64,000 nt of DNA from Pyrenula massariospora. Taxonomy: Eukaryota > Ascomycota > Eurotiomycetes > Pyrenulales > Pyrenulaceae. Made by a program: the position numbers and the translations under genes. Positions 7,290 to 52,827 of this stretch are shown one piece after another. The stretch covers positions 2,895,230-2,959,229 of the forward strand of contig JAGFMI010000001.1 of the NCBI GenBank assembly GCA_021030905.1, in the 5' to 3' direction. Numbering within the stretch: position 1 is the first letter of the stretch; the number at the start of each line of letters is the position of its first letter. Below the pieces are notes generated by a model that was not told where the DNA came from, did no database searches, and saw only the letters and a program-made list of their open reading frames with translations.

Positions 7290-8147
7290 ATGAGTTCCTC
7301 AGACACACGCTCATCGTCAAAATACTTCAAGCTCCCACAAGAGGTTGCGAACTACCTTCCTCATACCGTTTGTAGCTCCACTCTAATGAAAGCATATATC
7401 CTCAAGCAAGACCCAACACAGTGTCCACAACAGCCTCATCTCCTCTCAATTCCGAATGAGATACTTGATCGGATCTTCCACTTCATCTTCCTCATGCCAA
7501 ATACAGATGTAGATGATTTTTCCCACAGACATTACAAGAGCGACTGCCTCATGAAAGCGGAACATCGAGACCATGAGTCAGCAGTCTGCCTCGCGTTGAC
7601 TTGCAAGCGACTGGCCAAAATTGCCGTCATGAACCAATGTCAAAATCCACTCGGCCAAGAGTACTGCAATGACCAAAACATTCCAGAATTCCTAACAATT
7701 TTTGGGCCGGACGGGAATCGCGATGCAGATCTTGTCATGCGCTACGCCACTCGACAAAAACTCCTAGAAAACCTCAAGTCGGGCTGGAATCGCGACCCAG
7801 ATCTTGCCATGTGCCACGCCACTGGACGATTTGCGACCAATGTCCACGAGCCAGGTGACGAGCTACGCATGCATATTCGGGATCTGTGCGACCCACTTTG
7901 CGACAACTGCGAGCGAATCATCATGGAGGCTCTGCCTGAACTGCTGGAGACATTGAAAAGCGACGTTGTATTCGAGGTTGATTATGAATTGGGGCAACTC
8001 ATGGCGGGCGTGGACAACGAATATAGCATTTGGGTCGCGTGGGAAAAGGCGATGAAGAAAAGTTTCGAAGCTGAGAGGGCAGCTGGAAGGGGGGTTGTGC
8101 CGATACAACTAAGGTATCTTTTGGTTGACCCCTGGGTGATCATATAG
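7290..8147 (+). CDS. F-box-like protein, KFP/GWxRD family, member A
   Basis: This 285-codon frame is the outlying sixth member of the family clustered at 41.7-47.8 kb. In order it has KYFKLPQEV (residues about 11-19), an F-box-like pair (HLLSIPNEILDRIFHFI, then AVCLALTCKRLAKIAV), a GWNRDPDLAMC block, a CDPLCDNC cysteine pair and the tail GRGVVPIQ. F-box proteins usually bind Skp1 and select targets for SCF ubiquitin ligases; that role is inferred only from the motif. In the array members a phase-0 intron follows the KFPxx motif. Here a 63-nt stretch (7344-7406, GTTGCG...CAAG with TCTAATG inside) sits at the same place and is a multiple of three. If it is spliced, the product is 264 aa. A 72-nt internal duplication makes a second, degenerate RD-DL block just before the GWNRD block. 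Start: first ATG, 28 nt after a CTT run. Confidence 0.75.
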   Translation: MSSSDTRSSSKYFKLPQEVANYLPHTVCSSTLMKAYILKQDPTQCPQQPHLLSIPNEILDRIFHFIFLMPNTDVDDFSHRHYKSDCLMKAEHRDHESAVCLALTCKRLAKIAVMNQCQNPLGQEYCNDQNIPEFLTIFGPDGNRDADLVMRYATRQKLLENLKSGWNRDPDLAMCHATGRFATNVHEPGDELRMHIRDLCDPLCDNCERIIMEALPELLETLKSDVVFEVDYELGQLMAGVDNEYSIWVAWEKAMKKSFEAERAAGRGVVPIQLRYLLVDPWVII

Positions 8148-20353: not shown

Positions 20354-23300
20354 CTACCAGATATACATATCACAGAGTCTTCTCTTTTGTTCATTCTGTG
20401 GTATGGTGTTGTCGGTTGGAGCAGTCCTCGCAGAGCCGAACATTTCATCATCCGAGTCCAGATCCATTTCGACAGATTTTATATCCAGACTATCGTTTTC
20501 AGATTCATCGTCGTCTCCATTCGTTTGTGGCCGCCGTTGCTGCGATTTCACTTTTAGGCGCGGGATCTCGTCGTCAGACCCTGATTGCTCCTCTTCGGTC
20601 GTACTGCTAACAGATAGAGCTCCATCTTGTAAAAAATATTGGTGCGGATTTGTTGGTGGCTCCGCAAATGGGCGCAAACAACATTTCCAGCAGTGGTCTG
20701 GCGAGATAATGAAAGCTTTGTGACCGAGCTGAGCGCTGAGCACAGCGAATGCAAGGCGTGCTTGCCAATTTTTGTAAGCTCGAACGATGCCAGGATTGAG
20801 TGGGGGCTCGATCAATTCTTCCCATCTATCAATGCAAGCTAGGGGCAAGGGAGAAAGGCCTCTTTCAATCGGCCGTTCGTCGCAAATGCAGGCTATTTGA
20901 GGGAGAGATATACAATTCATACTACGAATTGCCCCAAGGATGTCTAGATCCGCAACCCAGGTTCCGTGGTCGTGTACAGCAACAAATCCATTGACAAAAC
21001 AAACTTCTGTATCTCGAATGCCCAATTTACTGGTGTCAATGGCTTGCTGCCAGTCCGATATCGAGATGTGTAATGTCAATTGTTCGAAAGCATTATCGGA
21101 TGTACCATTGAAGCCCGTGTGACTGATCACGTGCCAGGCATCATTCTCTAGCTTCCGCACCCGAGGTTGATCTGGAGCGATCATCATGATGATTCCGGGA
21201 CGACCAACATTTCCCACAATTCTTTCCACAGAAGCCAAGTCCGCGGTGCGTTCTGCAAAGCTCAGCCCAGGGTCCTTCCAGGGGTCGATAAGCAAAGCCT
21301 TTGCAACGTAGAGCGAATTTCCGCTTGAGATCGCCATTACGTTTTTGAGCGATTTCGGTGGTAGGTCGACGTTCCCAGATTCACAAGCAAGAATGCAAGC
21401 AAATCTAAGCGATTCATCACAGTCATGCACCGGATTGAGAGAACGGAACACTGTAGAGCTCAGGTTTCGTGACCAGTGCCATTCTGTGATTTTGTGGTCC
21501 GCAATTTTTAAGGAGACCGTAGCGCCATGAAGCTTCATGTAGATGAAGGACAGTATGTAAAGTGCGTCTAAGCCCTGAAACATCTCGATCATATCTTCAT
21601 CCCAGTCACCTTGTGTGAAATTTTCAACTAAAAGACTTCGAGACACCAGTCCTTGCGAAAATGCGTAGTTTATATCATCGAGCGGAAAGCGTCTTTCTAT
21701 ACTGACTGAAGACGAAATATTCACCGGGACAAAGACTGCACCTAAATCTTCATCCCCGAAGACCATATCAAAGGCGATTGTAGAAATTTGTGCTTGCTTG
21801 TCGCTTGATTGCTCACCAAAAGCATTGACAACATCCTGGGACACGTTTGTCCATTTCATTCTTGGTCTCGGTGAATACCAGAAGTCGATGTCAGGGGCGA
21901 GATCAGCTGTCTCACCTAGTTCTTGTACTTGTTTGCGTCTTCTTTTGAACTGACTATCTGCTGATGTACTCTCGCTGCATATCCACCTTATGTGACCGGT
22001 ATTAGCGACTTTCACTGAGCCGTCTAATTGCCTTTTCGAGCTTTTCAAAGAAGGTGCGATAGGAGCGGCGGAGGCGTATTCATGAGGTCTGATAGACTCA
22101 GTCTCTGTTGGTTTGCATAGATACTTTATGACTAGCTTCTCAGAGATATCAGGATATCGTTTCTGGCAAACAAGCCTCAAGAAGGCTAGTCGCTGCTCAA
22201 AATTCATGACTCGTAGCAGATTTTGAGGTCTTTGGAACCCAAAATATCGTTGCGAAGGCCGAGGGATGAAATTGGTATACCTTCTCACACCGGCCATTAC
22301 TAGTTGCCAAGACTCTGTCCTCCGCTCAGGCTTTGTCTTCAGGAAATTGTCTGCTTGTTCACCAAGAAGCCTGAGCCAGGAGGCCCCGGTGGGGGAGTTT
22401 CCGTCTAGTGACACTGCCAAATTCAGAAGGCTGACGAACTTTATGGACTCTTCCAACATTGACACCTTCCTAATCCATGGTTCTATCAAGGCCCCAAGAC
22501 CAACGAGGAGAAGCTGCTCAATGGTCACACGGGAAGTCTCGCGATTTACCCAACGTTTCACCAAAGGAGGGTCCCCATAGAAACACAGGTAAGCGAGCGG
22601 CAATGACCAGAACACACCTTGCTTCTCAGTGTCCCGATTCTGAAGACCTAAGGTGATCAGAGTCCCGGGAGGTAGAAGGTCGTCGCCCTGAGATATTTTC
22701 TGATTGGTCTTACCAAGGACAAACATATCTGGATACAGATGCCAGGAAGCTAGACCTAGGAGAGATGCACCATGTTCAATGCTTTGGCTTGAGCCTTTTA
22801 CCAGGTTGTCGATCGCAGTCAGGGAATTTTTCCAAGCCTCGAGTACACTCGTGTACAAGAAGGGCTTAGAATTTACCGAAGTTCCCACATTGTTCAGTAT
22901 CAGCATTAATTGAGCCTGTTGAACCTTTTTAGCCTCATCTGCAGATTGAAGCCAAGCACGTGCGCTTGCGTCCCAAGCAGCAATTTGAGACCTGGAAAGG
23001 TTTATGCGGGAGCTTTGCAGAGCAAGAATCCCAAGAACACTATCTTGATCTGAGCTGCTGCCAATAATTCGTTTTCTCTCTTCAACGAACTCAACCCATA
23101 TTGAGACGGCCTCAGCATGTGACCACATCCGAGCCAACATGCACGCTAATAAATGAAGAGCAATGACTGTATCTCCTGAGGTTGCTGCCGCCCAAATACT
23201 AGTTCCGTCAATGCCAAGATGCTCAGCAAATATGCCGTCACGTCTATTGCTTTTAGAGCAAGATTCCGATTTTGCTATTTCACTAGCTCGCAGTCCATAA

Positions 23301-23548
23301 GCGCGGTAAAGATCGGGAGTCTTAGGGATTGCCTCTGCAAATAATGCTCCGAGTTTCCGGGCCGTAACGTGGATTTGACCTTCCTCAGCCTCGGTACTAC
23401 GTTTGGCAGATAGAGACAATCCAAGATCTTGATATTCCTTTGGTGCGTCAACCTTTACCAAAGAGAAATCAAAATTGGCAATTGCGAGGGCGGCATTGCT
23501 TTCGAGGCTCCCCGATATGGCAGAGACGGTTGCTTTGCCGATCGACAT
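20354..23548 (-). CDS. Large uncharacterised fungal protein, 1064 aa
   Basis: A single uninterrupted frame. The upstream Met at 23578 adds ten residues, but the start at 23548 (MSIGKATVSAISGSLESNA) matches how I remember homologues of this widespread, uncharacterised ascomycete family beginning, so I prefer it. Other recognisable blocks are ADGTSIWAAATSG-like sequence near residue 120 (GIDGTSIWAAATSG) and HLLACMLARMWS. No signal peptide or transmembrane segment is visible. The C-terminal 100 residues are highly acidic with phospho-acceptor-rich runs (EEEQSGSDDEIP, then SENDSLDIKSVEMDLDSDDE), and just before them is CWKCCLR. The protein is probably soluble or nuclear. No enzymatic motif is apparent and I do not assign a function. 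Confidence 0.8.
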   Translation of the reverse strand: MSIGKATVSAISGSLESNAALAIANFDFSLVKVDAPKEYQDLGLSLSAKRSTEAEEGQIHVTARKLGALFAEAIPKTPDLYRAYGLRASEIAKSESCSKSNRRDGIFAEHLGIDGTSIWAAATSGDTVIALHLLACMLARMWSHAEAVSIWVEFVEERKRIIGSSSDQDSVLGILALQSSRINLSRSQIAAWDASARAWLQSADEAKKVQQAQLMLILNNVGTSVNSKPFLYTSVLEAWKNSLTAIDNLVKGSSQSIEHGASLLGLASWHLYPDMFVLGKTNQKISQGDDLLPPGTLITLGLQNRDTEKQGVFWSLPLAYLCFYGDPPLVKRWVNRETSRVTIEQLLLVGLGALIEPWIRKVSMLEESIKFVSLLNLAVSLDGNSPTGASWLRLLGEQADNFLKTKPERRTESWQLVMAGVRRYTNFIPRPSQRYFGFQRPQNLLRVMNFEQRLAFLRLVCQKRYPDISEKLVIKYLCKPTETESIRPHEYASAAPIAPSLKSSKRQLDGSVKVANTGHIRWICSESTSADSQFKRRRKQVQELGETADLAPDIDFWYSPRPRMKWTNVSQDVVNAFGEQSSDKQAQISTIAFDMVFGDEDLGAVFVPVNISSSVSIERRFPLDDINYAFSQGLVSRSLLVENFTQGDWDEDMIEMFQGLDALYILSFIYMKLHGATVSLKIADHKITEWHWSRNLSSTVFRSLNPVHDCDESLRFACILACESGNVDLPPKSLKNVMAISSGNSLYVAKALLIDPWKDPGLSFAERTADLASVERIVGNVGRPGIIMMIAPDQPRVRKLENDAWHVISHTGFNGTSDNAFEQLTLHISISDWQQAIDTSKLGIRDTEVCFVNGFVAVHDHGTWVADLDILGAIRSMNCISLPQIACICDERPIERGLSPLPLACIDRWEELIEPPLNPGIVRAYKNWQARLAFAVLSAQLGHKAFIISPDHCWKCCLRPFAEPPTNPHQYFLQDGALSVSSTTEEEQSGSDDEIPRLKVKSQQRRPQTNGDDDESENDSLDIKSVEMDLDSDDEMFGSARTAPTDNTIPQNEQKRRLCDMYIW

Positions 23549-23578
23549 TGCAAACTTCGAGTTCGAAATCGAACGCAA

Positions 23579-24410
23579 CCTTAGCTTGCCTTAAGGAGCC
23601 TCGGAAAAATCGATCTGAGGATTGAAGTGTTGGTGGCAGAAAAAATTTAGCGTTAACCCTTGTCGTCCTCGGGTCGCATCAAATGCTAGCTTGTCTCGAG
23701 CAATCATTCACGGGCAAAATGCCAATGCGCGATGATCATGCGCCAACGCAAAATGCTAAGATGATCAATCAAAATTGTAGCATTCGCATTTCCATGAAGG
23801 TAGTTGCAGACTGAAAGATGAAGGGACTCCATCGGCTTGCGAGGCTGAGAATGCACAGCGCAGCTGCATGATGAATGAGGCGAAGCAGTCCCACCTGTGC
23901 CGACCTTTTTGCGCATGAGGTAGTCTTATTGGCCTGCGTTATGTTATCCTGCTGTGATAGAGATGAGGGGACTGATAGCGCATCTCTGATAGGTAGTCAA
24001 AAGCAGCCACTTGCTAAGCTTTGGCGAGCATGCCCGAAGAGGATGCCGCCTGAACAGCAGGCAGGTATCCCTGAAGCGGGGCTAGAGGCATAGCCTTTCT
24101 CGCTTGCAGCCTGGTACGCAGAGACACCCTCTTTTGTAGGGTAGTGTCCCTGTGGGTAATATTCCCATGTGCAGCACCGGTAACCCCAGCCGAACCACGC
24201 GAACTGTCTGAAGCGTGGCCGGCCCGTGCCGCCCCCACGCTCGGTCTTCAGCCAATTCTTCCGTAGGCATGAGCCTAGCACAACCCACCACAACATCGAG
24301 AATATGTCGTCAAGCCCAATGGACGGCAATGAGGGCGCTGCTGGCGTGAGAGAGAGAAACTAGGTTCGCACGCCTTTCAGCGTTTTGTCAACCTAGCCAT
24401 TTGGCCTGTT
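23579..24410. other. Intergenic spacer
   Basis: Only short overlapping frames of low coding character. Nothing recognised. Confidence 0.4.
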
Positions 24411-41674: not shown

Positions 41675-42496
41675 ATGACTGGTCGACCACCTTCCTCATG
41701 GAAACCATGGCGAACGAAGCACCAAGATTCGAGTAGATGCTTGAAATTCCCGAAAGATGTACGTGTAGCCCTCTATTTCCAACAGCCACTGTGAGATCAG
41801 ATTGCTAACGCTATGCAGGCTCTCCAGCGACAGATAGCAAGGTATGATCTATCTCGAACGCACCTCCTTGCAATGCCGAATGAAATCCTCTACGCAATCT
41901 TTCAACTCGTCCACCAGTCTCCGCGATCTGACGAATATCCAGGAGAAGCCCTCTCGGAAGATGTGGAATCTGGCCTCTGCCTTGCACTGACATGTAAAAC
42001 TATGGCGAAGATCGCGGTCAGCCTGCGCTTTGAAGATCCATTGCATGGAGACAATCCGCTGCATTGGTCCCGGGCTTTTGATCTGCTTCGTCTACTCGAA
42101 CGCGGCTGGAAGCGGGATGAGAGAATTGGTATATGCTATGCGACGAGGAAATTTGCACCTTGTGTCAAGGTTCCAAGCCTCTTGCTCCGTCGGCAGCTTA
42201 GCTTTATGACCCTGGTTCAGTATGTTTGCATGGACTGTCATTCCGTTATCTTGAATGCATCAAGACACGTGGAGTGTTTGCTGATGGCTCAATTTGCAGG
42301 GGAGCTCAAGTTCACAGAATGGAAGTATCGCCAAAATGGAGTATTTCATCTCTACGAGCATCAAGAGCATGGCGGCTTGGTTGCAATAACTCGGTTTCAA
42401 GCGGTTGACGCCTGGGTAACGGCCTTGGATATGGCTTACGACGAAGAAAGACTAGCGGGAAGGAAGGTTGTCCCTATGCCTTTCCAATATTATTGA
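41675..42496 (+). CDS. F-box-like protein, KFP/GWxRD family, member B, 253 aa
   Basis: Two exons: 41675-41758 and 41819-42496, phase 0, with donor GTACGT, branch site GCTAACG and acceptor GCAG. Exon 1 (28 residues) ends in CLKFPKD. Exon 2 has the F-box-like motif HLLAMPNEILYAIFQLV, then CLALTCKTMAKIAV, DPLHGDNPL, the block LLERGWKRDERIGICYATRK, a Cys pair (YVCMDCHSVIL) and the tail GRKVVPMPFQYY. All features recur in members A, C, D and E. The SCF adaptor role is inferred only from the F-box-like part; the conserved middle and tail could be the substrate-facing part. No signal peptide, leucine-rich, WD40 or Kelch repeats. It is the first gene of the tandem array and looks intact. Confidence 0.8.
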
Positions 42497-43340
42497 GATG
42501 ACTATCGAAGGCTCGGATCTTGAACTCACGTCTCTCCTAGTCTTCGCGCATCACGACTACCACTTAATACGCCAATATTCTCGACGATCATGTCTCGCGC
42601 GGAACGCCATCGTTAGCCCTAACCAGGTCGCTCTAAACTTATCCGAATGTCTTGGTGAAACTCGCTCCGGTTTACCTTTTGCGAGAGGCTGGCCAACAAG
42701 ATCAAACAATGGCAATGACATTATGAGAGAAAACTGTCTCTTTGCTGGGATACTGGTGATTCTGTTTCCTAAGAATATATCTCGGCAATGACCATGAGGT
42801 TTACAATCGGAATTGGAAAGGGCCTGGCGAGCCGCGTTCGGGACGATGATTTAAAAGGAGGGAGCAACCGGCCACACGGTACAGAACCTTATGATCTCGC
42901 ACGACTACAGGAACGTGTTCGACGACCGGAATGATTGAGACCTCAATGGCCGGCAGCACAAAGAGATCCGCCCATTTATTCCGACGATTCGAATGTTTTG
43001 TTCGTGAGCCATGTGTGTGCGTAGCAAGCTGCTCGTGGACATCGGACATCTCGCAGTGCTACGGTGTCGAGTGTTTTACAACAGTCGGTTGTGCTTTCCA
43101 CTCCCCTCGAAGCAATCAGTTCAAATCCCAAATATTTCAAAGGTCTTTCAGATGGCCTGTGATTTATTATCTCTTTCTTGCTCCATAATAGTCAACACCC
43201 AGAATGAGCTAGGAGTGACAGCGAGATAAGCCCTGCTGATCTAGCTCTCACGTGTAGGCGTTTAGCTCAGGCAGACGGAATCGATCTAGACTGTGATGAG
43301 CTATAGGTATCATTAAACAAGTTTTCCAAGGCTGATTTCG
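42497..43340. other. Intergenic spacer within the F-box-like array
   Basis: No intact gene. A minus-strand frame near 42801-43049 has a hydrophobic Val-rich run but nothing recognisable. Confidence 0.35.
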
Positions 43341-43350
43341 TGACAACAGC

Positions 43351-43720
43351 TTATCGATATGCCAATTCTTGAAGAAAGCTGCTCGCGGAGTTAGCCTTCC
43401 TGAAGATGATACTTCTCGGAACGGCATCTAGCAACTTGAGGCTCTGGAGTCTTAGTGGCTTGAGGACAACTTCCTGGATGATATGGGTTAGAAGGAGGCC
43501 AATAGCGCGCGTGCAGAGTGCGCAGAGTGCGCAGAGTGCCAACGAGTGGCTAAAAGAGTGACAGCCGAGTACAAAGCTCGGACTTTGGGTTACTCACTAT
43601 CTACGGGGACGGGCCTCATTTTGTTTTTCACGTATGGGAATCAGATGCATCGAGACTTTGGGAGGCTGCTAAAGAGGAGCAAGCTGGGAGGAAGGTGATA
43701 AAAGTGAACCGGGAAATCGC
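43351..43720 (+). pseudogene. Remnant of a sixth array copy of the F-box-like family (copy F)
   Basis: Translation recovers the family's C-terminal half only: CQFLKKAARGVSLPEDDTSR corresponds to the C-x-x-x-x-K-x-A segment after the GWxRD block, then AECAECAECQRVAKRV to the Cys-pair region, then LWEAAKEEQAGRKVIKV to the GRKVVP tail. The first part contains three in-frame stops (TAG) and the tail lies in another frame. The F-box-like half is missing. The Cys pair has been expanded by three copies of a 9-nt unit (TGCGCAGAG register). It is a decayed duplicate of the neighbouring genes. Confidence 0.7.
43508..43536 (+). repeat. 9-nt tandem repeat in the decayed copy
   Basis: Three near-perfect copies of a GTGCGCAGA-type unit. 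Each encodes Cys-Ala-Glu in the family's reading frame, multiplying the CxxC motif. Confidence 0.8.
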
Positions 43721-43975
43721 GACTGAGTTGCTTAGTAGTGACTCATCACGCGTGTTTCATTCAGTACGGATTCCTGCGGATAGATTCGCCAAGCTTACCT
43801 CTGTTCAATTTTCTTCAGAGCAGTGATGTTTTCTCGCTTCAGACTTTACAGCTAGACACACTTCCGTCTATCCAAGTCCATCTGTGGTATAACGCTACGA
43901 CATCCTAAATCCGCTCCAGCGCAAACACTAAGATCTCTAGCTAAAAACTTGAGCCCAGAGGATCCTTTCACTACG

Positions 43976-44731
43976 ATGTCAACTTCGTCCTCCGCCTCTT
44001 CCTCCGCTTCGTCTTTGGAAGACGATGAACTACAATGGTCCGGATATTTCAAATTTCCACAAAATGTCTCAGATCCTTCTCAAGTTGATGACTCCATGTC
44101 AGGACTGACGTTTGCTTAGATACTTGATGAAACGACTTATGACGCCAAAGTAAAAGGCTCGTCCACGAAGTCTCTTCTCTCGCTTCCAAACGAATTGCTC
44201 TGCATGATTTTTGAGGGAATTGCTCGTGATGATACGAGCTGCAACGGTTACGAATACAACTCACCCATCTGCCTCGCTTTAACTTGCAAGGTACTTGCGA
44301 GGCTATCGGTCCCTCTGAGGTTCCTTAACCCCCTCCACCCTGTTGACGACGGGTCGCACAAGGACCAGCAGTTGCAAATGCTTGAACTTCTTGATAGAGG
44401 CTGGAATCGCGATACAAACCTTAGACCGTGTCAATTGTCCAGAAAATTTGCTCAATCTACGGGAATGCCAGATGAAACGCTTTGCGAAACGTTTGGAGAT
44501 CTAGATCCCAACATGACTGTATGCCAGCCTTGTAAGATGGTCGCACTAAATGCTTTGAAGAATTTTCAGTCGATGGTGAGCCACAATATCATTCTAAAAG
44601 AAGGAGGATTCCAATTTCACGATAACATGGGCCCTGTTCATTATTATTGGGCGGAGGCAAGAATCAAGGCTTATGAAGAAGAAGAGGAAGGCGGACGAAA
44701 AGTGGTTCCGATTCAATACAATGTTGAATGA
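43976..44731 (+). CDS. F-box-like protein, KFP/GWxRD family, member C, 233 aa
   Basis: Two exons: 43976-44065 and 44120-44731, phase 0. The donor context is weak (AAT/GTCTCA), but its place directly after the KFPxx motif (GYFKFPQN) matches members B, D and E, and CTGAC precedes the TAG acceptor. Exon 1 is a Ser-rich and acidic 30-residue leader. Exon 2 starts ILDE, as in member D, and has SLLSLPNELLCMIFEGI, CLALTCKVLARLSV, LLDRGWNRDTNLRPCQLSRK, a Cys pair (TVCQPCKMVAL) and the tail EEEEEGGRKVVPIQY. It is the shortest intact member. Function is unknown beyond the F-box-like inference, and its polyacidic tail before GRKVVP is unique among the copies. Confidence 0.8.
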
Positions 44732-45341
44732 ACCTTCCGGCAACACGTACAATCCTCCGCCGGGTCAGAATGTCCTCTACTAATATTGGCCAATTCACTG
44801 CAAACATTTTATGGTGGAAAATACAAAGCTCCAGATCAAAGAACTGGGGTTCTTCGATGATCAATTCATGAAGGGCTCTCTCGTGTGGTGGTACAATGAC
44901 AACAACTTTCAACTTGCTGTTGCACAGGAAAGGGAATCATACTCACACCATTGTCCGGGCCTATAATCACGCGCAGGTTACGACCTGGGGTTTTCCCAGA
45001 CCAAGCTAGTAACTACAATCCCCATCTTTACCTCTACGCCACATCAATTCATGTGTCACTCCTAATTTCTCATGAACATGATACTCTGAGAACATAAAAA
45101 CTCACAAGTGGGCAGATTTGATAGCCTGTCGCGCCTGCCCTTTTCGATTTCAATTTCGTGCCTGCTCCTTTCGGATTACTTTCGTGCCTGTCTTATGACT
45201 TGTACATTCGGATCGCGCTGATTTCAAAATCTCGTACATTCAAAGTTCTGTGCGTTCAAAACTCCATCCAAATCCCCCTGCTCTCACCCTCTCTTCTCTG
45301 GGCGAATTTTGTCTCTTGAAGTACGTCAATCCATCATCCTC
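44732..45341. other. Intergenic spacer within the array
   Basis: No gene. The right 200 nt are T/C-rich leader-like sequence. Confidence 0.4.
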
Positions 45342-46195
45342 ATGACACAAGTGGCGATCATGAACCGATATTATGATGACCCTCACCCGGGAGACCCTTC
45401 ATACTGGTCCATTCCTTCACTCTTAGTTCCAGCTCTGCCTGCGCTCGCGACGTTCCATGGACTGCGATACGCGACAGACTTCAGCATCCAGCGCCCACGT
45501 ACCGCATTCAAGCTTCCTACAGCCGTAACTTATCATTAAATCTCCACCAAGTGACGCCCCAACTAACAAACGGGCAGATCCTCGATGAGCCTTACCAGAC
45601 TCTCCGCCTACCTCAACCCCAACCTCGTGCATCTCTCTTCTCCCTCTCAAACGAAGCCCTCTGCCAGATCTCTCGCCTTCTCGTCGACATCTGCCCGACC
45701 ACCCATCTTCAAAACAACGACGCTCAAATCTGCTTCGCATTAACCTGCAAGCTCTTCGCCAAACTCACGGTATCTCTCAACGCCAAGAACCCCCTATCAG
45801 GAGACACCTTCACGGACTCCAAACATGGAAAGTTCATGACACTCCTAGAAGAAGGCTGGGTTCGGGACAAGAACCTCCGTTTCTGTCACTGTACATGGAA
45901 GCTTGCTTCTCGTGTCCGGGAGCTCGCGGATGTCCCTGAGACGGGCCAGCCAGCGCTTAACACAATACTACAAAGGGCGGGGGAGCCGTTCTGTATGGAG
46001 TGCTTTGATGTGGCTAAGAGGGCGGTGAAGATTGCGAATAGATTTGCGAGGGCTCCGTGTGCATGCTGCAGTCGAAAGAGAATGGAATGCCTGTCACTTT
46101 CCTATGATCGTGAATATGAATGGGAGAGGGCGAAGAGGGCGGTGTACCGGCAGGATCTGAGAGAGGGAAAGAAGGTACTGCCGTTTGTGTGGTGA
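45342..46195 (+). CDS. F-box-like protein, KFP/GWxRD family, member D, 266 aa
   Basis: Two exons: 45342-45524 and 45578-46195, phase 0, with donor GTAACT, branch site AACTAAC and acceptor GGCAG. The ATG at 45342 (MTQVAIMNRYYDDPHPGD) was chosen as the first in the frame; one at 45360 is also possible. Exon 1, 61 residues, is longer than in the other members but ends with the same element (AFKLPTA). Exon 2 has ILDEPYQTL, a diverged F-box-like motif (SLFSLSNEALCQISRLL), CFALTCKLFAKLTV, NPLSGDTF, LLEEGWVRDKNLRFCHCTWK, a Cys pair (PFCMECFDVAKRA) followed by a second one (APCACC), and the tail EGKKVLPFVW. Codons shift from C-ending to G-ending at about 45960. It looks intact. Confidence 0.8.
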
Positions 46196-47003
46196 CAACA
46201 GCTCTGGTAGCTCGCTGCAGAGATGACAGTCATGTTGGGCTATAAACCAGGCGGTACATGACGGATAGCAACCGTTGAGCTAGCAAGATAGACTGTCCAT
46301 TGCGGACACTAGCGTTAGCCATCTAATTGGGACAGGGAGACCGTCTACGTACATCGAGCGTGTAGAAAGGGCAGTCCTTACACTTTGTGCTTAAGCAAGC
46401 ATCCGAGCGAAGGAAAGCTGCAGAACGCTGCCCAGTGCTTTCATACACGTGCGCTGCAGAGCCTATGCTTGAAGCTAAACCTTTTTTAAAGCTTTTGCAG
46501 ATCATTCGCTTACAGAAAGGGGCGTCGGATTGGTTTCCTCTCAAGAAAAGGGGAAACTGCTGGAGACATTGGCTTGCTGGTTGCTGACCTGCGTATCTAG
46601 GCGCATGAAAGTACTGCAGAATTGAAAGGTTCTCCCTCAAGACTTCTCCCAAGATCTATGAAGTTTAAGATAAAGCATAACGGCCGTTCATGACGCATAT
46701 TGCTCTCGTGTATGCACTTCAAAAATCGGGATGAGGAGTACTTTGTATGGTCCCGTACTTATACTCAGAGGGAAGACCGTGGAAAAGAATCACTGCCATT
46801 ATATAGGATGATTCACTGCCTGTGGGGCAGGTTGTTTCTCAAAGCTTCCCCATGAGCCTGAACTCCTCGAAACAAGGCGTGGTGACCGTTTCTGAACAGA
46901 TTTGCTCATATATGGTCCAAAAAAAGTCAATGTTGTTTCTTCATTTTGGAAGCAAAGTATCAAAGTCTCTTTGCGCTCCGTACTTGCGCCGGACAAGCCA
47001 GCC
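46196..47003. other. Intergenic spacer within the array
   Basis: A minus-strand frame at 46323-46652 contains KCKDCPFYTLDV, loosely like the family's Cys pair, but no other family motif is present, so I do not call a copy here. Confidence 0.4.
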
Positions 47004-47766
47004 ATGTCGTCCCTCACTCTATCAGATCTAAACCAAAGATGGTCGCTCAAGTTTCCTAAGAGTGTAAGTCTCAACTAAAAACCTTTGACGACCTGGCCAC
47101 CGCTAATAAGAGTGTCGTCTAGATCACACAAAACGTTCGCCAAAATGTGAACAACCTTACCGCAGGACCCTCCAGCCAGATCTGCGGGACAGGTGGGAGA
47201 GCGTTAAAACCGGATAAGACTCTACTCGACCTACCCATTGAGTTGCATGTTAAAATCTTCTCTTACCTTACCGATGATCAATCTTCGCTCTGACCTGTAA
47301 GACGCTCGCTGGCGCGGCCGAATTGAGCCACGTCATGAATCCGATGGTCTACCCTTTCACTTTTTACGACGTGAAGAAGAACTTCATACGTCAGCTTGCA
47401 GATGGATGGAATCGGGACAAGGACCTGAGAATATGCCAGCTGTCTGGTAGGTTTGCTCGAAATGCTATCTATGACCCTCTTCTCGTCTCGGACACTGACC
47501 TTAAAGGTCTGACCCTTGTCGGCCCGATTTGCGGACTATGCGTCGGTATTTGGAAGAGGGCCGCGAACGTCGGCAAGAGGAAAACTGGAAAATGCATTTT
47601 GCCTGCGAGAGAAGGAAGCTGGCATCGAAAGATTTGGACGGATGCTCTACAGACGGTGCGCGAGGAAGAGAAAGCGGCGGGAAGGAAAATTTATGTCTGT
47701 GAGAATATGTTTCATGTTCGGCCGGAAGACGTTGATCCGTTCCAGAGTAGACCATGGCATTGTTAG
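47004..47766 (+). pseudogene. F-box-like protein, KFP/GWxRD family, member E, frameshifted
   Basis: Exon 1 (47004-47063) encodes 20 residues ending SLKFPKS. A phase-0 intron follows (GTAAGT, GCTAATAAG, TAG at 47122). Exon 2 starts ITQNVRQNV and has the F-box-like motif TLLDLPIELHVKIFSYL. At about 47279, just where the other copies have the IC-ALTCK helix, the frame changes by one base. The upstream frame hits TGA at 47292, and the family sequence IFALTCKTLAGAA continues in another frame. From there it is complete: LADGWNRDKDLRICQLSGRF, a Cys pair (GPICGLCVGIWKRA) and EEEKAAGRKIYV, with the tail extended past GRK. Everything else is well kept, so the lesion looks recent, or is a sequencing error. 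Confidence 0.75.
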
Positions 47767-51236: not shown

Positions 51237-51735
51237 CTTATTTTCTATGAGCTCGTGCATCTTCAATTAATTGCTTTCGGTGAATTGGATACGATTCCGT
51301 GGTTTCTGATAGAGGCGATTGTCGAATGGCAACATGAAACGTTGGTGCAAGGCTGTATCACGTTGGCGTAATGATCGCGTAAGGGCTGACTGCCTGTTCT
51401 AGCAGGTGCGCAATGATTTCGTGGGTTGGCGCAGATCCATTGTCATCCTTGCTGTTGACGTGATTGGTGAGGGTTAGCGATACCTTGACGCTATCTAAGG
51501 TTCAATCTTTCTTAAGACCACGCAAAGATTGAAAAATAATGCATGTGAATCTCGACCAATCGTGGCATCCCCCTTTCGGCTAAAAATCGGGACGAGAGGT
51601 GCCACGACTTCTGTGTCCCAGCCTCGTTTGGCAGGCAGAAGCTTGACGCCTAACGACAGAGACTTCTTTATCATCTAATGAATGCGATAAATATACATAC
51701 TGCCGCGCAAAGAGACTCTCAGGTGTTGTGTATCC
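51237..51735. other. Intergenic spacer, promoter of the next gene
   Basis: A TATA-like element (AAATATACATA) lies about 45 nt before the ATG at 51736. Nothing else is seen. Confidence 0.4.
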
Positions 51736-52827
51736 ATGAAAATATTGCGCTCTCCAGAAGAAGGCTGGATTAGTTGGATAGCTCCCGCCTTCAAGATGCT
51801 ACTCGGTAGAAAAAGGCGACAGAAGAAAATCGATCGACTCACCCAAGAACTGAATACTCTCAAGGAAGAATTTCAAAACTTCAAGCAACAAATCGAATTC
51901 AAGGAAGCAGCGGAGGTACGATGGGTGACCCCGAATCCTTCCGAAGGTCCCGCTCTCAATAACAAAGCTTCACCGGTAACCTTACTTGAAAACTCCACCA
52001 CCCAGTCAAGCGATGCCAGGAAGACATTTCTGCAAATCCTACCATTTGAACTCAGACAGAAGATCTTTGATTACGTAGCAAGTGGCTACAATGTAAGAGA
52101 CGCTGCCAACGACCGAAAATGGAGCACCCTCATGCATTGCCCAATCGAGTTGGTGGTAAGCCGACAATTTGCTCGAGACTTCTGCCTCGCCTTCTACCGA
52201 CGTTCATTCAACCTGGAAATCAACCGCCGGCACACCAAAGGCGAACATGCCAAGAAGATAGCAAAATCATTTCTCGACCGCGCTGGCGGCCCCATGATCA
52301 GCTACTTCCCGCAGATTGCGTTCGTGCTTCAGATGTATAACTGCAGCTATTGGCATCAGGATCTTCCATGGCTGTTAAATGAGCTTGACAAGTTTAGCGT
52401 GGCGCCGATTCGGACGTTGGGTGTTGCGTCGCTTGAGGTCAGCTCGGTACAGCATCGTGACGACAGTACCAACTCGGAGAAATTGGACATAGAGATCATG
52501 GTGCGAGTAAAACACATGAATCAGAATGTGTCGGTAGGTTTTTATTTCACTTCATCATTAATGCCTTTGCTGCTCTCTCTTCATGGGTGTTAACAAGAAG
52601 CTCTCTAGCCGTTCACCCTGCAGATTGTAGGGAAAATGAAGAAGAACAAGTGGAGCTCGATTGAGTGGAAGAAAGAAAGTGTAAACACGCAGATCCAAGA
52701 CGGCTTCCCGAAGCTGTTCGTTGGAAATAAGAGCAAAAATCCAAGATTTTTCTGGAACCGGTTTAGCGATGAGTTCTATAACACGGAGAAAGACTACAAG
52801 TACGACTCTGACGACGATTCTTGGTGA
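51736..52827 (+). CDS. F-box-like protein with N-terminal coiled coil, 333 aa
   Basis: Two exons: 51736-52533 and 52624-52827, phase 0, with donor GTAGGT and a 90-nt intron ending CCTGCAG (a second acceptor, CTCTAG, lies 18 nt upstream). Residues about 25-58 form a basic then heptad-like helix (RRQKKIDRLTQELNTLKEEF). An F-box-like motif follows (FLQILPFELRQKIFDYV, about residue 97), then a region with VSRQFARDFCLAFYRRSFN that is common in fungal F-box-like proteins. The last exon is basic and then strongly acidic (DYKYDSDDDSW). It has none of the KFP, GWxRD or GRKVVP motifs of the array and is a different family. An SCF adaptor role is inferred from the motif alone. Confidence 0.7.

Follow-up and report, generated by a model that had tools for sequence, protein, structure and literature searches.

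A diverged family of small F-box proteins with invariant cysteines in Pyrenula massariospora

As a rule, the F-box is the part by which F-box proteins attach to Skp1, and the proteins deliver substrates to the SCF (Skp1-cullin-F-box) ligase (PMC5029927). In nematodes and plants they form large families, for which PMC8665587 and PMC3719486 report many paralogues and both gain and loss of copies. Here, we describe a family of small F-box proteins in the ascomycete Pyrenula massariospora, found in a 64,000-nucleotide stretch of contig JAGFMI010000001.1 (G000:C11:2895230-2959229, hereafter the window) within a genome of 37.8 Mb in 33 contigs. The window holds an array at 41.7-47.8 kb, consisting of members B, C, D and E and of a decayed copy, relic F, located between B and C. 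Member A lies apart from the array, at 7.3 kb.

The family resembles those of nematodes and plants in its many paralogues and in the gain and loss of copies. It differs from them in its size (at least 22 loci), in the age of its copies and in the lack of a visible recent expansion. With the PF00646 and PF12937 proteins that carry no known C-terminal domain it shares the LPxE..L..IF and LALTCK helices near the N-terminus, a small size and a C-terminal sequence of another kind; a variable inter-helix loop, invariant residues P71, C104 and C135/C138, a tail glycine and a 5' mini-exon set it apart. It adds a defined F-box subfamily whose C-terminal part has no convincing Pfam model, and is otherwise fairly ordinary.

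Extent of the family and its F-box

A preliminary description, made from the window alone, had proposed that members A to F form one family with an F-box-like N-terminal side. With member C as the query, 23 matches were obtained in the genome at E≤1, on 21 loci; counting relic F, this makes at least 22. Seventeen of the 20 other family loci were matched with E values from 1.5e-26 to 2.9e-6, and the three weakest were L028 (6.5e-4), L029 (0.034) and L030 (0.056). These values indicate that the relationship of the copies goes beyond chance and that the family is real. Six more queries (L012, L017, L026, L024, L018 and member D) recovered subsets of the same loci and added none with confidence, the counts being lower bounds; their matches outside the family were seven weak ones, with E values from 0.02 to 1.6. 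The viral contigs scanned with member C gave nine pattern matches, with no relative among them. In the literature, no family of this description was named in the titles and abstract openings of the matches listed.

The F-box was assayed on the exon-2 proteins of the 19 copies that could be aligned. PF12937 (F-box-like) matched 12 of them at E≤1, with a best value of 2.8e-6, and PF00646 matched eight. In the genome scan, six of the 21 family loci exceeded the PF12937 cut-off of 24.3 bits, in agreement with the F-box proposed for the N-terminal side. Scores were 30.0 bits for L024, 29.7 for L017, 25.9 for L029, 25.4 for L021 and 24.4 for L012, and 24.1 for L018 (25.3 with its neighbours); L024 and L029 also passed the cut-off of PF00646. 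Members A to E were assigned to the F-box proteins because they are homologous to the family loci that pass the cut-off. Skp1 itself (PF01466) was found at one locus in the genome (E 2.8e-29). The F-box matches of the window members are weak, so the family is easily overlooked. The gain is mainly one of annotation, since small fungal genes with a weak F-box and a tiny first exon are easily missed.

No leucine-rich, WD40 or Kelch repeat was detected by Pfam, either in A-E (E≤10) or in the set of nine families to which the 19 members gave matches (E≤1), as had been noticed earlier. Membership in the FBXL, FBXW or Kelch subfamilies of F-box proteins is therefore not indicated. When PDB sequences were compared with the 19-copy profile, the single match was a non-significant F-box stretch of FBXO31 (E 0.93). 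F-box matches are also grouped on contig C15 of the same genome (G000 C15:28557-46296 and 105908-107666).

Gene structure, damaged copies and age

Gene models confirmed the described state of the array: B, C and D are two-exon genes with open frames, whereas the frame of E is broken and F is a relic (Table 1). The introns of B to E are in phase 0 and lie immediately 3' of K[FL]Pxx. For member B, the gene model has an intron of 60 nt, while the scan for first exons picks a different acceptor, 42 nt from the donor.

Table 1. Coordinates of the family members in the window and of the family loci on contigs of the genome. Bit scores refer to the family profile; members that are themselves rows of this profile are marked.
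Feature	Position	Strand	Description
Member A	7290..8147	+	Single open frame, 285 amino acids; N-terminal KYFKLPQE; GWNRD block internally repeated; 197.7 bits (profile row)
Member B, exon 1	41675..41758	+	Last residues CLKFPKD; gene model and exon-1 scan
Member B, exon 2	41819..42496	+	F-box, C block, CxxC, tail GRKVVP; 199.4 bits (profile row)
Relic F	43208..43823	+	Fragments of F-box helix, C block, CxxC and tail in family order; frames broken
Member C, exon 1	43976..44065	+	Last residues YFKFPQN; gene model and exon-1 scan
Member C, exon 2	44120..44731	+	211.4 bits (profile row)
Member D, exon 1	45342..45524	+	Last residues AFKLPTA, by eye; start codon uncertain
Member D, exon 2	45578..46195	+	183.2 bits (profile row)
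Member E, exon 1	47004..47063	+	Last residues SLKFPKS; gene model and exon-1 scan
Member E, exon 2, piece 1	47123..47290	+	F-box helix 1; stop closes frame; 13.6 bits, E 0.0033 (not a profile row)
Member E, exon 2, piece 2	47278..47766	+	Other frame; LALTCK through tail; 135.6 bits (profile row)
Family loci, contig C11	2.72-2.74 Mb		3 loci
Family loci, contig C11	2.885-2.943 Mb		8 loci including relic F
Family loci, contig C18	239-248 kb		6 loci
Family loci, contig C21	71-74 kb		2 loci
Single family loci	C2, C22, C28		One locus each

The mini-exon was then searched for by script in the 150 nt upstream of 19 copies (all but A, F and L030). A short exon ending like FKLPxx, with an adjoining GT...AG intron and a phase-0 rejoin, was present in 13 of the 19 upstream regions and in one of 380 shuffled ones; a strict form of the pattern gave 10 of 19 against none of 380. 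The pattern had been fixed after inspection of the copies, and the shuffles thus address chance matches and not the choice of the pattern. In nine of the 13 positive copies, the second exon opens with I or V, followed by L. The scan missed D, whose first exon is out of its reach, as well as L010, L018, L020, L021 and L028. Related or looser endings were seen in the missed copies by eye, without a control (LFKLPKA in L020, DLKISES in L021, and that of D in Table 1). The mini-exon and phase-0 intron, which had been described as common to all members, are therefore widely shared, but member A has no convincing intron. Its frame stays open across the intron place, and splicing there is thus unsure. 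The shared intron favours duplication at the DNA level. Within member A, positions 7707-7831 form an internal repeat made up of PDGNRDADLVMRYATRQK and, behind it, KSGWNRDPDLAMCHATGRF. The GWNRD block occurs here in two versions, the first of which lacks the cysteine of the block.

Relic F was detected as four weak fragments, at 43208-43303 (9.9 bits), 43336-43428 (7.9), 43492-43695 (9.0) and 43554-43823 (5.0). Its recognisable pieces are LALTCRRLAQ from the F-box helix, RDNSLSICQFLKKA from the C block, the CxxC block, and AGRKVIKV from the tail. Taken singly, these fragments are near noise, as scores of 8.5 and 8.4 bits were obtained for two unrelated pieces elsewhere in the window. In contrast, when 43100-43830 was shuffled 200 times with its dinucleotides preserved, the sum of the two best pieces of the relic (18.9) was never reached, the best shuffle giving 10.2. 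The relic was accepted because of this control and because of the order and place of its fragments. At 43511-43540, the CxxC segment has turned into a short tandem repeat of GCAGAGTGC units, reading CAECAEC. Two indices of repeat-induced point mutation gave no clear signal across the array and member A (0.41-0.89 and 1.04-1.62; 0.80 and 1.37 for the relic) by the usual thresholds.

In the whole family, four loci are damaged: E, relic F, L014 (in-frame stop) and L030 (a fragment with stops). By eye, the normal tail is missing in L018, L025 and L029, and the exon-2 frames of the remaining 15 loci are open.

The copies are deeply diverged, the closest pair being 44.5% identical and the median pair 26.6%. 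Because of the former value, no recent burst is seen, and synonymous change would be saturated for an estimate of the ratio of non-synonymous to synonymous change (dN/dS). Three of the 16 inner branches of the tree were well supported: L017-L028, A-L026, and B with A and L026. L026, which comes from another contig, is thus grouped with A and B, whereas C and D were placed without resolution; E paired with L016, a pairing flagged by the program as a possible long-branch artefact. Neighbouring copies paired in the tree as L017-L028 (100/99), L011-L014 (90/85) and L015-L024 (90/79). Contig labels changed six times along the tree, a number as low in six of 200 shuffles, so that the copies are somewhat clustered by contig. 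Together, the neighbour pairs and this clustering suggest that local duplication happened, long ago. Of the birth-and-death evolution proposed for the array, the mix of open and dead copies is supported, but no fresh expansion is seen: the copies are old, with visible loss (E, F, L014 and L030) and no visible recent birth.

Conserved skeleton and probable role

Conservation was analyzed on an exon-2 alignment of 19 rows, numbered after member C. L029 (diverged, tail lost), L030 and relic F were left out; E and L014 were represented by the piece behind the break, L018 by its first 153 residues, and A from inside its frame. Five residues are invariant in all 19 copies: C56, P71, C104, C135 and C138. 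C104 and the C-x2-C pair formed by C135 and C138 lie outside the F-box, and the pair is indeed shared as first described. Counting the rows with a residue, E25 (17/17) and G192 (18/18) do not vary either, and W95 (17/18) and W177 (16/17) are near-invariant. The complete GWxRD motif, put forward as a mark of the family, was seen by eye in only six of the 19 rows (A-E and L010), although its tryptophan is kept in 17 of 18.

Blocks of our own choice were also compared by mean column entropy with 2000 random draws of columns (overall mean 2.31). The F-box helices had the lowest values, 1.42 and 1.62, with 0 and 8 draws as low. The stretch behind C104 reached 1.74 (92 draws), the tail 1.91 (55 draws), the GW block 2.02 (186 draws) and the CxxC block 2.33 (1015 draws), about the overall mean. 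The claim that the last three elements are as conserved as the F-box thus holds within A-E but not over the 19 copies, where the GW and CxxC blocks are not clearly more conserved than random columns. Nevertheless, the anchors hold with 14 more copies, and the GWxRD, CxxC and tail motifs are real anchors amid looser surroundings rather than chance alignments.

Beyond the F-box, no Pfam family convincingly covers the members (A-E and the 19 members), and none matches them over their full length. Only scattered matches of single members were obtained; ATP-synt_F6 (E 0.0049, one of 19 members) and similar ones outside the F-box were taken as chance.

On these grounds, we consider it rather likely that the copies are diverged SCF substrate adaptors. 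Docking on the Skp1 of the fungus would fall to the N-terminal F-box, and a C-terminal part of some 130-150 residues (LLxLL..W...C, CxxC, W..A...GRKVV) would present a target to the SCF ubiquitin ligase. The old family would have spread by DNA-level duplication that retained the mini-exon and the phase-0 intron. Loops and leaders diverged strongly, and these variable parts would read different targets; the skeleton of cysteines, two tryptophans and tail was kept, and some copies died. Should the C-terminal part turn out to be a recognition module of a new type, a compact substrate receptor would be gained.

Several observations weigh against this proposal. Members A to E all fall below the Pfam F-box cut-offs, with E values of 0.014-0.077 for A, B and C, and D and the piece of E match no Pfam family at E≤10. 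At E≤0.1, PF12937 also gives matches in two bacterial genomes out of 14 controls, all of them below the cut-off. AlphaFold models, made from five window sequences, had a mean pLDDT of 45.2 for exon 2 of C and 51.4 for A, with only the helices usable; since the models are poor, they do not support the C-terminal part as one folded domain. Moreover, some F-box proteins act outside SCF complexes. The copies might instead be F-box-derived proteins without ligase function, such as decoys or regulators, whose weak F-box reflects lost Skp1 binding. Five of the 21 loci were indeed listed below the PF12937 cut-off and ten were not listed at E≤0.1, but no part of the alignment is better conserved than the F-box helices, which is what a docking face that remains in use would lead one to expect, and we regard such a loss of function as improbable.

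The origin of the C-terminal part may be sought in other F-box proteins. Two of these on contig C30 (L061/L062 and L063) carry a CxxC knuckle behind an LLxLL-like stretch and are possible cousins of the family. L063 and L061 share with it the F-box, then the LLxLL-like stretch and a cysteine at a matching place. The family differs in having C-x2-[ST] instead of their knuckle and, in member C, a CxxC pair 31 residues behind C104. The C-terminal part could therefore be a derived branch of an F-box type with the block LLxLLEKDLPxxxxCxxCxRLY, presumably widespread in ascomycetes, in which the second cysteine of the knuckle is now Ser or Thr. That block, in this or a looser form, is found in L063 and L061, and in all 19 rows C104-x2-[ST], mostly followed by [KR][FL], stands by eye in register with CxxCxRL. 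A profile comparison of the family with L061/L063 gave a probability of 82% (E 1e-5) over 55 columns, from the F-box to LLxLL. Without the F-box, however, 10-22 columns of the LLxLL stretch match L063 alone (score 14.3), stop before the cysteines and are borderline, as two of 100 L063 shuffles scored as high; the version with two sequences, L061 and L063, scored 16.3, without a shuffle control, and the comparison as a whole is one with two sequences. Common descent of the C-terminal parts is plausible but unproved, and we put the derived branch at somewhat less than an even chance; it would be compatible with the role of adaptor.

The invariant cysteines had also raised the idea of zinc binding. 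C104, C135 and C138 could form a zinc site with a changeable fourth ligand, the metal steadying the recognition module. The three residues are invariant in every row, and in each of the two low-confidence models a helix is predicted to begin within the CxxC pair. However, in a count of Cys/His columns that skipped those with fewer than 12 letters, no fourth ligand was kept outside the F-box (column 80, 5/17; column 67, 4/19; column 122, 4/18), and exon 2 of L020 contains no histidine. The further cysteines C51 (14/19) and C56 (19/19) belong to the F-box helix, where a core cysteine is usual. A classical zinc finger with four Cys/His ligands was rejected, as only three such residues are invariant outside the F-box, and a site of the changeable kind is doubtful. 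A much bolder idea, which we hold to be a long shot, is that the exon-1 peptide FKLPxx, the three-cysteine core and the GRKVV tail would together make up an undescribed target-recognition domain, linked to an F-box, and that the family would have a fast-changing recognition task in this fungal lineage, such as self/non-self recognition or defence.

Other genes in the window

An open frame of 1078 amino acids on the minus strand (20354-23590) has no Pfam match at E≤0.01. The window also holds short introns and genes of the Zn2Cys6 and JmjC types, which together with the size of the genome point to a filamentous ascomycete. Finally, another protein with an LPFELRQKIFDYV helix is encoded at 51691-52593; it matches no Pfam family above the cut-off, and we take it to be F-box-like or 2EXR-like.

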